Positions 21,072 to 25,691 of a stretch of 51,647 nt of DNA are shown piece by piece; the first letter of the stretch is position 1; every line of letters begins with the position of its first letter. The DNA lies in the NCBI GenBank assembly GCA_902619855.1, contig CACNGE010000008.1, forward strand, positions 1 through 51,647, in the 5' to 3' direction. A program made the translations under genes and the position numbers. The notes beneath the pieces were generated by a model. That model saw nothing but the letters and a program-made list of their open reading frames with translations, was not told the origin of the DNA and ran no database searches. This stretch comes from an uncultured Bacteroidota bacterium. GTDB taxonomy: Bacteria; Bacteroidota; Bacteroidia; Flavobacteriales; Flavobacteriaceae.

Positions 21072-22520
21072 ATGTGCAGTTATCTTCTTTTATCCATTCT
21101 TACAGGATATTTCATCGTGTTAATGGTCATTGCTCGTTTGACGAAAGGCAAAGAAGACAACCAAACGTTTTTTATCGCAAATCGATCTGCTCCATGGTAT
21201 CTAGTGGCTTTTGGAATGATTGGTGCTTCCCTTTCTGGTGTTTCCTTTATCTCTGTTCCTGGATGGGTTGAAGACACAGAGTTTAGTTATTTCCAAATGG
21301 TCTTGGGCTATATCGTTGGGTACTTTGTCATTGGCACTGTCCTTTTGCCTATTTATTATAAATACAAACTCACTTCCATCTACACCTATCTATCTACACG
21401 ATTTGGCGCAAAGACCTACAAAACCGGGGCATCCTTTTTTGTTTTATCACGAATTGTTGGTGCTAGCTTTCGTCTGTATCTAGTTGCAAGTGTACTCCAG
21501 TGGGTTATTTTCGAACAAATGGGGATTCCTTTTTGGTGTACTGTCATTGTAACCATATCCCTGATTTGGCTTTATACACACAAGTCTGGCATCAAAACAA
21601 TTATTTGGACAGATGTATTGCAAACACTTTTTATGTTGATTGCACTATGCCTTGCATTATACTACATTACAGCTTCTCTAGAAATTGAGCATCTGTTTGG
21701 ATGGCTTGGTCAACAAGACAATACACAAATATTTTTCTTCGATGATTATAAAAGTCCTTATTTCTTTTGGAAACAATTTTTGTCTGGTGCATTAATTGCC
21801 ATTGTTATGACAGGTCTTGATCAGGACATGATGCAAAAGAATCTTGCGTGTAGAAGTCTGTCTGATGCGCAAAAAAATATGTTTTGGTTTACCATCATAT
21901 TGACAATCGTGAATCTTGTATTTCTGATATTGGGGACTTTACTCACTGCCTATGCATTGACAAATGGGATTGATGCACAAGGAGACAGACTCTTTCCTGT
22001 CGTCGCCACCCAATCCGAGCTCGGTCTTGGGCTATCAATTGTTTTTCTTCTTGGGCTCATTGCAGCTGCTTATAGCAGTGCTGACAGTGCCTTGACATCC
22101 CTCACAACAAGTGTAAGCATCGATTTACTCGAAATCGAAAAAAGACTTCAACTAGATCATCAAGAATACACACGCAAACGAGTTCATCTACTCGTATCAC
22201 TATTGTTGATTCTTGTAATTCTCGCATTTAATTATTTGATAACTGATAAAAGCGTGATTGCAAAATTATTTGAGTTCGCAGGCTACACCTATGGGCCCCT
22301 ACTTGGGTTATATGCTTTAGGAGTGTTGACAAAGGTTCAAGTGCGCGATCGATGGGTGCCATGGGTCGCTGTTTGCACGCCTATCATAGGATATCTAATC
22401 AGTCAATGGACTTTAACAAACCATGATTTTGACTTTGGATTCTTCATACTAGCCCTTAATGGGGCATTGTGCTTTTTGGGTTTGCTATTAATTCGCAGCA
22501 ATCTGGCTACACCCACTTAA
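21072..22520 (+). CDS. sodium:solute symporter (SSS family)
   Basis: This 482-residue multi-span inner-membrane protein of the SSS family couples solute uptake to sodium. The family core is visible: [29 protein letters not shown] after TM1, then [34 protein letters not shown] and [23 protein letters not shown]. About 13 hydrophobic segments are evident. The substrate (sugar, sialic acid, amino acid and so on) cannot be read from the sequence. The first membrane segment begins right at the ATG, so no shorter start is plausible although the promoter abuts it. It ends convergently with the fabH-like gene, overlapping by 14 nt. Confidence 0.92.
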
Positions 22521-23526
22521 TGAGTGAGCTACCCCATGTAAACCCACTTCCAAAAGCAGCAAGCATTACATGATCACCTGAGTTGATTTTCCCTTCTTCC
22601 CACGCCTCACAAAGTGCAATCGGTATCGAGGCAGCAGTCGTATTACCATAGCGCATGATGTTATTGTAAACTTGATCGTCTTGTAAGCCAAACTTCTTTT
22701 GCACAAACTGGGCAATTCTCAAATTGGCTTGATGAGGGATAAGCATATCGATATCACTTGGCTCCAGATTGTTTTTTGCAAGTGCTTCACCAATCACTTC
22801 CGAAAACCTTACAACAGCATTTTTAAAAACCAATTGCCCATTCATATATGGGTGATAATCAGGATCATTTGGATCATAATTTTCAAACACTTCATGCACC
22901 CATTTTTTGGTGCTTGGACCAATTAAAGAAAGTTCCTTGGCATGCTTACCCTCAGAGTGAAGATGCGTGGAGAGTACCCCCTCCTCTGGGTTTTCATGAC
23001 GGCTGACAACAGCTGCACCAGCACCATCGCCAAAAATAACAGAAACTGTACGTCCACGAGTGGTAAGGTCCAGACCTCCCGAGTGATGCTCAGATCCAAT
23101 GACTAAGACATTTTTATAAGTTCCCGTACGTATATATTGATCTGCAACAGAGAGGGCATAAATAAATCCAGAACATTGATTTCGGACATCAAGTGCAGGA
23201 CAAGTACCAATTCCCATTATGTCTTGCACCAAAACTCCAGAGCCAGGAAAATAATAATCAGGACTCAAGGTAGCAAAGACAATCAAGTCGATGTAATCTT
23301 TGCTAATTCCAGCACGATCGATTGCCTGTTGGGCAGCCATAACACCCATGGATGCTGTTCCTTCAGCAGAATCTTTTGCAATAAATCGGCGTTCTTCAAT
23401 ACCAGTTCGTTCTGCAATCCAGTCATGACTCGTGTCCATCATCGTCGATAGATCATCATTTGTAACTTTATTTTCAGGCAAGTATTTACCAAGACCTATA
23501 ATTTTTGAGCTATAGTGTTTTAACAT
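22507..23526 (-). CDS. 3-oxoacyl-ACP synthase III (FabH-like)
   Basis: This 339-residue thiolase-fold condensing enzyme starts fatty-acid or related chains by condensing acyl-CoA with malonyl-ACP. The Cys-His-Asn triad is present: Cys118 in DVRNQCSGFIYAL, His in LIPHQANLRI and Asn in RYGNTTAAS. It is slightly longer than E. coli FabH, with an insertion around residues 215-230 (YDPNDPDYHPYMNG). It may be a paralogue rather than the main FabH. No other fab genes are adjacent. A probable short RNA or attenuator unit lies upstream, and the start is 35 nt after its hairpin. Confidence 0.92.
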   Translation of the reverse strand: MLKHYSSKIIGLGKYLPENKVTNDDLSTMMDTSHDWIAERTGIEERRFIAKDSAEGTASMGVMAAQQAIDRAGISKDYIDLIVFATLSPDYYFPGSGVLVQDIMGIGTCPALDVRNQCSGFIYALSVADQYIRTGTYKNVLVIGSEHHSGGLDLTTRGRTVSVIFGDGAGAAVVSRHENPEEGVLSTHLHSEGKHAKELSLIGPSTKKWVHEVFENYDPNDPDYHPYMNGQLVFKNAVVRFSEVIGEALAKNNLEPSDIDMLIPHQANLRIAQFVQKKFGLQDDQVYNNIMRYGNTTAASIPIALCEAWEEGKINSGDHVMLAAFGSGFTWGSSLIKWV

Positions 23527-23554
23527 GTGATAAATTTAGTCAATTATTGTACTA

Positions 23555-23689
23555 AAAGTAAAAGGTGTGCAATAGCACACCTTAAACAACTTAACCAAAA
23601 AAACAAACAAACCAAGAATTTGTCGAAAAGAAGCTATCTAATTTTCATAGCAATAATTCCCAATTAAGAGTAGTATAGCATACTTTTCT
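23555..23689 (-). ncRNA. candidate small RNA or transcription attenuator upstream of the fabH-like gene
   Basis: A complete minus-strand promoter (TTTG-20-TATATTTG) is followed after about 110 nt by a perfect 9-bp hairpin and a T-rich tail, defining a transcript of about 135 nt. Inside are two short hairpins: AGTAT-AGC-ATACT at 23672-23684 near the 5' end, and GCTAT...ATAGC at 23633-23651. The latter encloses a four-codon frame (ATG AAA ATT AGA TAG) starting at 23648. No longer open frame is present. It may be a stand-alone small RNA or a terminated leader of the downstream gene. I do not recognise it as a known family. Confidence 0.5.
23562..23583 (-). terminator. intrinsic terminator of the small transcription unit
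   Basis: AAGGTGTGC and GCACACCTT form a perfect 9-bp stem with a 4-nt loop. On the minus strand it is followed by TTTTACTTTT. It lies 36 nt upstream of the fabH-like start codon. Confidence 0.65.
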
Positions 23690-23693
23690 TTTA

Positions 23694-23725
23694 CAAATAT
23701 ATATTGTGTTTAACTTTTTTGCAAA
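23694..23725 (-). promoter_or_regulatory. promoter of the small transcription unit upstream of the fabH-like gene
   Basis: On the minus strand TTTG (23725-23722), 20 nt, TATATTTG (23701-23694): a full consensus match. The expected start is near 23688. Confidence 0.75.
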
Positions 23726-23813
23726 TTAATTAAACAAAAAATACTAGAGTGTCATCTTGTCAGAGAGCAAACAATGGTATTTTTTTTGCTAATACACATG
23801 TAAATTTTAAAAA

Positions 23814-25691
23814 ATGAGTACAGGAAAAATTAATGTTGCAGTTGAAAATATCTTTCCACTAATCAAAAAATTTCTATACAGCGATCATGAAATCTTTTTG
23901 AGAGAGTTGGTTTCAAATGCAACAGACGCGACACTAAAACTAAAGCATCTTACCCAAATCGGAGAAGCGAAGGTTGAGTATGGCAACCCACTGATTGAAG
24001 TCAAGGTTGACAAAAAAGGAAAAAAACTCCACATTATTGATCAGGGCGTTGGGATGACATCTGATGAAGTCAATAAATATATCAATGAAGTTGCCTTTTC
24101 TGGTGCTGAAGAGTTTTTGGAGCAGTACAAGGACAGTGCGAAAGACAGTGGCATTATCGGACACTTTGGTCTTGGTTTTTACTCGGCTTTTATGGTTGCC
24201 AAAAAAGTTGAGATCATCACAAAGTCATACAAAGATGAGCCAGCAGCGCATTGGACTTGTGATGGGTCTCCAGAATTCACCTTGAAAAAACATGATAAAA
24301 AAGAAAGAGGTACAGAAATCATTTTGCACATCGACAAAGATTCGAAAGAGTTTTTGGAAGAGACTCAGATTCGTTCTTTACTCACTAAATACAACAAGTT
24401 TATGCCCATTCCTATCAAGATGGGCACAAAAGAAATTACGAAGACTGAGGGGGATGGTGATGATGCCAAAGAAGTGAAAGAAGTTGTTGATGATATCATC
24501 AATAACCCCTCACCTGCTTGGATTCAAAAACCAACAGATCTTAAGGATGAAGATTACAATCATTTTTATCGAGAGCTATATCCGACACAATTTGAAGAAC
24601 CTTTATTTCAAATACATCTCAATGTTGACTACCCTTTTCACCTCACCGGAATTCTCTATTTCCCAAAAATCTCTAACGATTTAAATCTGCAAAAGGATCG
24701 TATTCAACTCTATCAGAATCAAGTGTTTGTCACTGATAATGTAGAAGGGATTGTGCCAGAATTTTTGACCATGCTTCGTGGTGTTATCGACTCTCCAGAC
24801 ATTCCTTTAAACGTGTCTAGAAGTTATTTGCAAGCAGATGGAAATGTCAAAAAAATTAGCAATTATATCACTCGAAAAGTAGCAGACAAGCTCAAATCAC
24901 TCTTCAAAAAAGAAAGAGAGGCTTTCCAAGAAAAATGGAATGATATAAAAGTTGTGATAGAGTACGGCATGCTTTCAGAAGACAAGTTCTTTGAAAAGGC
25001 AAAGGATTTTGCACTGTTTCCAACCACAACAGGCGACTATTTCACTTTTGAAGAGTTAAAAGAGCATACAAAAGATGCGCAAACCGATAAAGACGGAAAG
25101 CTTGTGCAACTTTACGCATCCAATGTAGATGAGCAACATGCATATATCGATGCTGCAAAAGCAAAAAGATACACTGTCTTATTGCTTGATTCGCCAATTG
25201 TGAGTCATCTTCTTCAAAAATTAGAAACAAATGAAGAAAATATCACCTTTACAAGGGTGGATGCAGATCAAATCGATAAGCTTATCGTAAAAGAAGATGC
25301 AACGCCATCAAAATTGAGTGAAGAAAGTCAAGATCAACTCAAAACACTTGTTGAGGGTATCGTGCCTAAAGCAACCTATACTGTACAACTCGAACCGATG
25401 GACAGTAAAGCCTTGCCGTTTTTGATTACGCAACCAGAGTTTATGCGAAGAATGAAAGAGATGCAGCAGACAGGCGGTGGCGGCATGTTTGGTGGAAATA
25501 TGCCAGAAATGTACAACCTGATTGTAAACATGAACCATCCATTAGTCAGTCAGATTTTAGAAACAAAAACGAAAAAGAAACAAGAACGATTGATCAAACA
25601 GTCTGTCGATCTTGCACGACTAAGCCAAAACCTTTTGAAAGGAGAAGAGCTTACTTCATTTATCAATCGAAGTTTTGACATGATCAAATAA
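23814..25691 (+). CDS. htpG: molecular chaperone HtpG (Hsp90)
   Basis: HtpG is the cytosolic Hsp90 homologue. The GHKL ATP-binding motifs are visible: LRELVSNATDATLKL, DQGVGMTSDEV, GHFGLGFYSAFMVAKKV and GTEIILHI. The middle domain (about residues 230-430, with DLPLNVSRSYLQ-type sequence seen here as DIPLNVSRSYLQ) and a C-terminal dimerisation domain follow. The 625-residue length is normal. No classical heat-shock operator (CIRCE) is seen upstream. The 88 nt before the start hold only AT-rich sequence without a convincing promoter. It ends in a strong intrinsic terminator. Confidence 0.97.
   Translation: MSTGKINVAVENIFPLIKKFLYSDHEIFLRELVSNATDATLKLKHLTQIGEAKVEYGNPLIEVKVDKKGKKLHIIDQGVGMTSDEVNKYINEVAFSGAEEFLEQYKDSAKDSGIIGHFGLGFYSAFMVAKKVEIITKSYKDEPAAHWTCDGSPEFTLKKHDKKERGTEIILHIDKDSKEFLEETQIRSLLTKYNKFMPIPIKMGTKEITKTEGDGDDAKEVKEVVDDIINNPSPAWIQKPTDLKDEDYNHFYRELYPTQFEEPLFQIHLNVDYPFHLTGILYFPKISNDLNLQKDRIQLYQNQVFVTDNVEGIVPEFLTMLRGVIDSPDIPLNVSRSYLQADGNVKKISNYITRKVADKLKSLFKKEREAFQEKWNDIKVVIEYGMLSEDKFFEKAKDFALFPTTTGDYFTFEELKEHTKDAQTDKDGKLVQLYASNVDEQHAYIDAAKAKRYTVLLLDSPIVSHLLQKLETNEENITFTRVDADQIDKLIVKEDATPSKLSEESQDQLKTLVEGIVPKATYTVQLEPMDSKALPFLITQPEFMRRMKEMQQTGGGGMFGGNMPEMYNLIVNMNHPLVSQILETKTKKKQERLIKQSVDLARLSQNLLKGEELTSFINRSFDMIK

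Follow-up and report, generated by a model that had tools for sequence, protein, structure and literature searches.

A family-wide small RNA of the Flavobacteriaceae with a candidate LitR/CarH-type operator and complementarity to a second small RNA

Between the divergent genes fabH and htpG, the minus strand of the window (51,647 nucleotides of contig CACNGE010000008.1, from an uncultured member of the Flavobacteriaceae) carries a promoter and a terminator around a stretch with no ordinary gene. The question is what this unit makes: an RNA that acts on its own, a leader for the gene that follows, or a very short peptide. The initial annotation had wavered between a new small RNA and an attenuator coupling a fatty-acid gene to a leader signal, and had pointed to a four-codon frame inside the unit.

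A small RNA conserved across the family

The promoter proposed in the initial annotation, TTTG followed after 20 nt by TATATTTG, was present on the minus strand, as was the perfect 9-bp hairpin with its T-rich tail (Table 1). Read from htpG towards fabH, the elements lie in the order palindrome, TATATTTG, RNA body, 9-bp hairpin, T-rich tail and fabH ATG. The hairpin was one of eight found by a generic terminator scan that was expected to yield 5.8 by chance, so that the scan match alone is weak evidence. Conservation of the unit, here called sRNA-A, went far beyond chance. It could be aligned in 11 congeners, and a covariance model (R1) built from 13 sequences found it in 87 of 397 family genomes, in 59 genera and nearly always as a single copy; this count includes a handful of the weakest matches, which lack palindrome and loop, and misses some members, as a later model (R2) added a genome (G013) that was absent from the R1 matches. 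Named carriers include Maribacter, Pricia, Robiginitalea, Aequorivita and Eudoraea. The R1 matches without palindrome and loop (L143, L157, L172, L188 and L190) were excluded from the curated counts, which refer to 91 copies. Matches to R2 that fell outside the family or lacked palindrome and loop (L349-L360 among them) were judged to be chance matches or 3′-end elements.

Table 1. Features of the sRNA-A locus, with the sRNA-B locus of the source genome
Feature	Position	Strand	Basis and remarks
sRNA-A gene, ~135 nt	23692..23554	minus	R1 covariance-model match, 145.5 bits; 5′ end approximate, 3′ end is the T tail
Operator-like palindrome TGTTTAA-N16-TTAAACA, TGTTTAATTAATTTGCAAAAAAGTTAAACA	23736-23707	minus	predicted LitR/CarH site; overlaps promoter
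Promoter TTTG-N20-TATATTTG, Bacteroidota-type	23725..23694	minus	sequence
TTTG promoter element	23725-23722	minus	followed by 20 nt, then TATATTTG at 23701-23694
Stem 1, 5′ arm	23688-23674	minus	covariation: 15/15 pairs with two-sided changes
Apical loop TTGCTATGAAAA	23653..23642	minus	column counts; complements invariant unpaired segment of sRNA-B
Four-codon frame ATG AAA ATT AGA TAG	23648-23634	minus	length and frame not conserved
Stem 1, 3′ arm	23640-23625	minus	covariation
G/U-rich conserved unpaired element TTCTTGGTTTGTTTGTTTTTTTGGTTAAGTTGTTT	23618..23584	minus	near-invariant in family as GTTTGTTTATTTATTGGTTAGGTTGTTTG
Intrinsic terminator hairpin, perfect 9 bp, AAGGTGTGC-TATT-GCACACCTT	23583..23562	minus	sequence, folding, covariation
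T-rich tail TTTTACTTTT	23561..23554	minus	sequence
fabH-like gene (ACP_syn_III + ACP_syn_III_C)	23526..22507	minus	Pfam; downstream neighbour of sRNA-A in the genus; ATG at 23526
htpG	23814..25691	plus	divergent upstream neighbour of sRNA-A in 75 loci
sRNA-B	G000:C19:7566-7655	plus	just after dnaJ in source genome; L407/L429

The region 23690..23555 folded with a z score of -3.46, beating all 200 dinucleotide shuffles. Among the 91 curated copies, all 24 pairs showed two-sided changes (354 cells), including the nine pairs of the terminator, where 99.1% of cells were paired. The covariation score was 0.334 against 0.121 in shuffled alignments (0/500), and slid controls reached at most 0.110; this alignment was fitted to the covariance model, and an independent MAFFT alignment of 13 sequences gave 0.213 against 0.147 (0/500). 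Two small hairpins had been proposed inside the unit. The first is the covarying stem 1; the second (23623-23607) is broken in L007, L008 and L012 and was discarded. Conservation of primary sequence was confined to the loop, TTGCTATGAAAAAG, and to the unpaired GTTTGTTTATTTATTGGTTAGGTTGTTTG on the 5′ side of the terminator. No Rfam family matched sRNA-A, or the second RNA described below, at either gathering or permissive thresholds, the sole Flavo-1 match (L125) lying away from both.

The unit is therefore a real small-RNA gene found across a large and mostly marine family, predicted to yield a discrete transcript, and has the marks of a stand-alone sRNA gene: its own promoter and terminator, a conserved structure and no ordinary gene inside. 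The suggestion of a new small RNA, which was to be checked by homology and covariance models in relatives, is supported by compensatory changes across the family and by the lack of an Rfam match.

Related G/U-rich elements also precede other terminators. Elements resembling TTTATTGGTTAGGTTG were seen between stop codons and terminators in L172, L188, L195, L236, L352, L353 and L356, and in the Flavobacteriaceae they are perhaps a general 3′-end or RNA-chaperone site. On the other side of the locus, the htpG promoter region (23750-23789, plus strand) contains TGTCA-N3-TTGTCA and TGGTATTTTTTTTGC (TGG-N10-GC), which resembles a sigma-54 -24/-12 site and is largely conserved in the family; in Flavobacterium psychrophilum, htpG depends on sigma-54 (PMC9723704).

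The palindrome over the promoter and a LitR/CarH-like regulator

The sRNA-A promoter is overlapped by a palindrome, TGTTTAA-N16-TTAAACA, that the initial annotation had missed. Although it lay outside the covariance model, it was found 5′ of 87 of the 91 curated copies, exactly in 64, with one mismatch in 22 and with two in one. In 84 of these 87 a TAnnTT[T/G] box followed 3-9 nt past the palindrome, the distance being 5 nt in 50. The source genome contains three exact copies (control 0): at sRNA-A, immediately 5′ of msrA-folE, and ahead of a gene that has PRAI-domain relatives in congeners. Across 60 relatives the palindrome was common and a reversed-pattern control nearly absent. There it precedes phytoene desaturase (crtI), DNA photolyase and folE, and also genes for fasciclin lipoproteins, SRPBCC-like proteins and a TetR-like protein. 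In one locus (L035, G049) it is followed by an ECF-sigma-like gene, with a LitR-like gene ~700 bp away.

The palindrome was also found at the start codon of a LitR/CarH-like gene in nearly all of 30 litR loci; it was exact in five, in most of the others the right arm lay inside the ATG, and in the source genome the spacer at this site is 17. The gene product has MerR and B12-binding_2 domains, its best solved relatives are the Thermus thermophilus CarH/LitR structures 3whp and 5c8d, and it keeps the W-x9-EH and ExHxxG motifs. In the source genome litR precedes crtB and crtZ. All 87 sRNA-A genomes had LitR, as did 233 of the remaining 310 (P=7e-10), and the palindrome was present in 21 of 30 LitR-positive and 1 of 17 LitR-negative genomes (P=1.7e-5); both P values treat related genomes as independent and so overstate the independent evidence. 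In other families, LitR occurred without an exact palindrome in 7 of 12.

One operator-like palindrome is thus shared by litR, carotenoid and photoprotection genes and an sRNA, as in a regulon. From its position at the litR start, the content of this regulon and its co-occurrence with LitR, we infer that LitR is the regulator, and the palindrome is a well-supported candidate operator of a LitR/CarH-type MerR-B12 repressor. LitR would then bind at the sRNA-A promoter, which would respond to light.

In six loci of genomes without detected sRNA-A (L038, L079, L081, L088, L091 and L092) the palindrome stands directly before a TetR-like gene, the same one that follows sRNA-A elsewhere. sRNA-A may therefore have begun as a leader of the TetR operon.

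A second small RNA complementary to the loop

The sRNA-A loop UUGCUAUGAAAAAG is nearly invariant across the family, being absent in L151 and L185 and carrying GTG in place of ATG in G078, G263 and G270. A search with its exact complement in 60 carriers led, besides sRNA-A itself, to a second recurrent non-coding place. Read on the matching strand, the RNA encoded there, sRNA-B, is ~90 nt long and has a TAnnTTTG box, a variable 5′ hairpin, an unpaired TTTTCTTTTTCATAGCAATTTTTTT and a terminator of the form CCCAYCC...GGRTGGG-TTTT. The locus type recurs in L377-L476, and all 39 distinct sequences have the TAnnTTTG -10 box and the terminator. The sRNA-B model matched 342 of 397 family genomes, and sRNA-B occurred in 86 of 87 sRNA-A genomes against 256 of 310 others (P=1.3e-5, related genomes being treated as independent). 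sRNA-B is a second undescribed small RNA, near-universal in the family.

All 50 copies checked had the same unpaired segment CTTTTTCATAGCAA, and 32 of these copies came from genomes in which sRNA-A was not detected; in the first sRNA-B set invariance arises by construction, because the loci were collected by an exact 14-mer, and the set found by covariance model is a fairer test, with a model that was trained on the 14-mer loci. As sRNA-B is present with an invariant segment where sRNA-A was not detected, its partners must include others besides sRNA-A, which is no more than one among them.

The unpaired CUUUUUCAUAGCAA of sRNA-B, likewise the same in all 50 copies, complements the sRNA-A loop, and the GTG-bearing loops keep a G-U pair with it. 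In 32 of 38 genomes the longest uninterrupted Watson-Crick match between the two RNAs was 10 or more, and at the loop site it typically ran to 12-17; in shuffled controls the longest match was typically 7, and 26 of 760 reached 10. RNAduplex gave -44.5 for the pair in the source genome (G000) against -24.9 ± 4.1 for shuffled sequences. Some genomes have a longer match, in which GGGAAAAAATTGCTATGAAA lies opposite the 5′ arm of the sRNA-B terminator (20 bp in G178). sRNA-A thus has extended complementarity to an unpaired segment of another sRNA, as a sponge has, and the two RNAs would be expected to bind in the cell. The four-codon frame noted earlier makes more sense as a conserved RNA loop with complementarity to the second sRNA.

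Targets of sRNA-B among mRNAs were also sought. The one conserved candidate tested, the ABC1 kinase gene, was rejected, as GCTATGAA was present at only 3 of 118 starts, and no conserved mRNA target was found. In 2 Mb of loci, GCT before ATGAAAA starts showed no overall enrichment (10 of 341, of which three were antisense of sRNA-B). Single matches were seen elsewhere. A fasciclin lipoprotein gene with a palindrome (L043) starts with AATTGCTATGAAAAAGAA, of which 18 nt are complementary to sRNA-B, a single anecdotal match; in G199 (L391) an ORF starting TTGCTATGAAAAAG has the palindrome about 40 nt upstream. Further copies of TTGCTATGAAAAAG lie directly 5′ of terminator hairpins in L389 (G249) and L390 (G211), and are possibly additional sRNA-B partners.

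Proposed role and comparison with known systems

The best reading of these results, which we consider probable, is that sRNA-A is a stand-alone RNA under light and B12 control that sponges the core RNA sRNA-B, or is its antisense partner. In the dark with B12, a LitR/CarH-type repressor would block the sRNA-A promoter at the palindrome; light, or the absence of B12, would free the promoter, and sRNA-A would be made. Its stem would display the loop, followed by the G/U-rich single strand and the terminator, and the loop would pair with the unpaired segment of sRNA-B, which would be sponged when light is sensed. sRNA-B itself might base-pair with mRNA starts such as GCUAUGAAAAA, of which the sRNA-A loop would be an imitation, and such targets would show as translation starts with conserved complementarity to AUUUUUCUUUUUCAUAGCAAUUUUUUUCCC. 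A sponge is the simplest reading because sRNA-B is the broader, core RNA, and sRNA-A has a promoter predicted to depend on the signal, and a displayed loop; its direction, with sRNA-B rather than sRNA-A as the target, its light response and the regulatory targets of sRNA-B are predictions. More tentatively, and with slightly less than even confidence, a B12 photoreceptor might in this way control a sponge RNA with a loop that mimics an mRNA start (GCUAUGAAAAAG); by titrating a family-wide core sRNA, the sponge would let light reset a post-transcriptional network in marine flavobacteria.

sRNA-A might instead be a LitR-controlled trans-acting sRNA that reaches its main mRNA targets through the G/U-rich element (UUAUUGGUUAGGUUGUUUG), with the sRNA-B match secondary, or sRNA-B might act on sRNA-A. 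The element is conserved as strongly as the loop, and sRNA-B, the older and broader RNA (342 against 87 genomes), might be the one that regulates sRNA-A. However, relatives of the element precede the terminators of ordinary genes, which suggests a general 3′-end or protein-binding role, and the counterpart of the invariant segment elsewhere in the genome is the loop, not this element; we regard this alternative as unlikely. It is distinctly doubtful that the palindrome is the site of a different regulator in place of LitR, such as another light- or oxidative-stress regulator, which would make sRNA-A a stress sRNA without B12 or light sensing. With centres 23 bp apart the palindrome is unlike the Pseudomonas LitR consensus, T(G/A)TACA-N12-TGTA(C/T)A (PMC9758184), but its placement at litR, the genes that share it and its co-occurrence with LitR argue for LitR.

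Control of read-through, by sRNA-A and its terminator, into a TetR-ABC1 kinase operon, or into fabH in the source genome, is improbable. In 40 loci a TetR-like gene lies 50-160 nt downstream, and in 29 the next gene is fabH, which starts 25-39 nt past the T tail in the source genus, where read-through into it may occur; where sRNA-A is absent, the palindrome stands before the TetR gene itself. Against this, sRNA-A is kept in about 20 loci with a convergent next gene, the downstream genes are unrelated to each other, and the GC hairpin is strong, with no conserved alternative pairing seen. Because the downstream gene varies, with no conserved tie to any one, sRNA-A is not in general a fabH attenuator, and the coupling to a fatty-acid gene proposed earlier is not supported as a conserved role. 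Translation of ATGAAAAAG into a micro-peptide is very improbable. Where the A of the loop ATG varies it is G in 3 of 3 cases, and stops within four codons numbered 30 against 12.9 in shuffles; such immediate stops nevertheless argue against a peptide product. The frame is present in the source genome, yet neither frame nor length is conserved in the family: variants read MKIR, MKK, MKNE or MKKILIA before the stop, stops come after 2 to 28 codons or the frame is open, the conserved nucleotides downstream are read in different frames, and the stem sequence varies freely with pairing kept. The micro-ORF was therefore rejected.

Flavobacteriaceae are among the main marine heterotrophs, many of them light-responsive, and the route from light to expression and the roles of their sRNAs are poorly known. 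The gain is two very conserved undescribed sRNA families that apparently pair, a candidate flavobacterial LitR/CarH operator, and a proposed chain, open to test, that links a photoreceptor through a sponge RNA to a core sRNA, for which cultured species of Maribacter, Robiginitalea, Aequorivita and Pricia are among the sRNA-A carriers.

Bacterial sponge RNAs include SroC and ChiX-chbBC. sRNA-A is like them in having an exposed stretch complementary to an unpaired segment that is invariant in a core sRNA; unlike them it comes from another phylum, has other sequences and is predicted to be under photoreceptor control, the pairing being read from sequence alone. With the LitR/CarH regulons of Thermus (CarH) and Pseudomonas (PplR/PmlR; PMC9758184) the present system shares a MerR and B12-binding regulator, an autoregulatory site, and photolyase, folE and carotenoid genes. 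The candidate operator differs from that of Pseudomonas in sequence and spacing, and the Pseudomonas consensus is not family-defining. No regulatory RNA in a LitR/CarH regulon, and neither the sRNA-A nor the sRNA-B sequence, was found in the open-licence papers searched. sRNA-A is the first member of an apparently undescribed sRNA family in the Flavobacteriaceae; Rfp18, tied to metalloproteases through its third stem-loop, and other sRNAs of F. psychrophilum (PMC9723704), compared by description only, are likewise structured and cross-species. Flavo-1 RNA (RF01705) is also a flavobacterial sRNA family. Photoreceptor repressors are known, and so are sponge RNAs; what appears to be new is the combination of the two, along with both RNA families.
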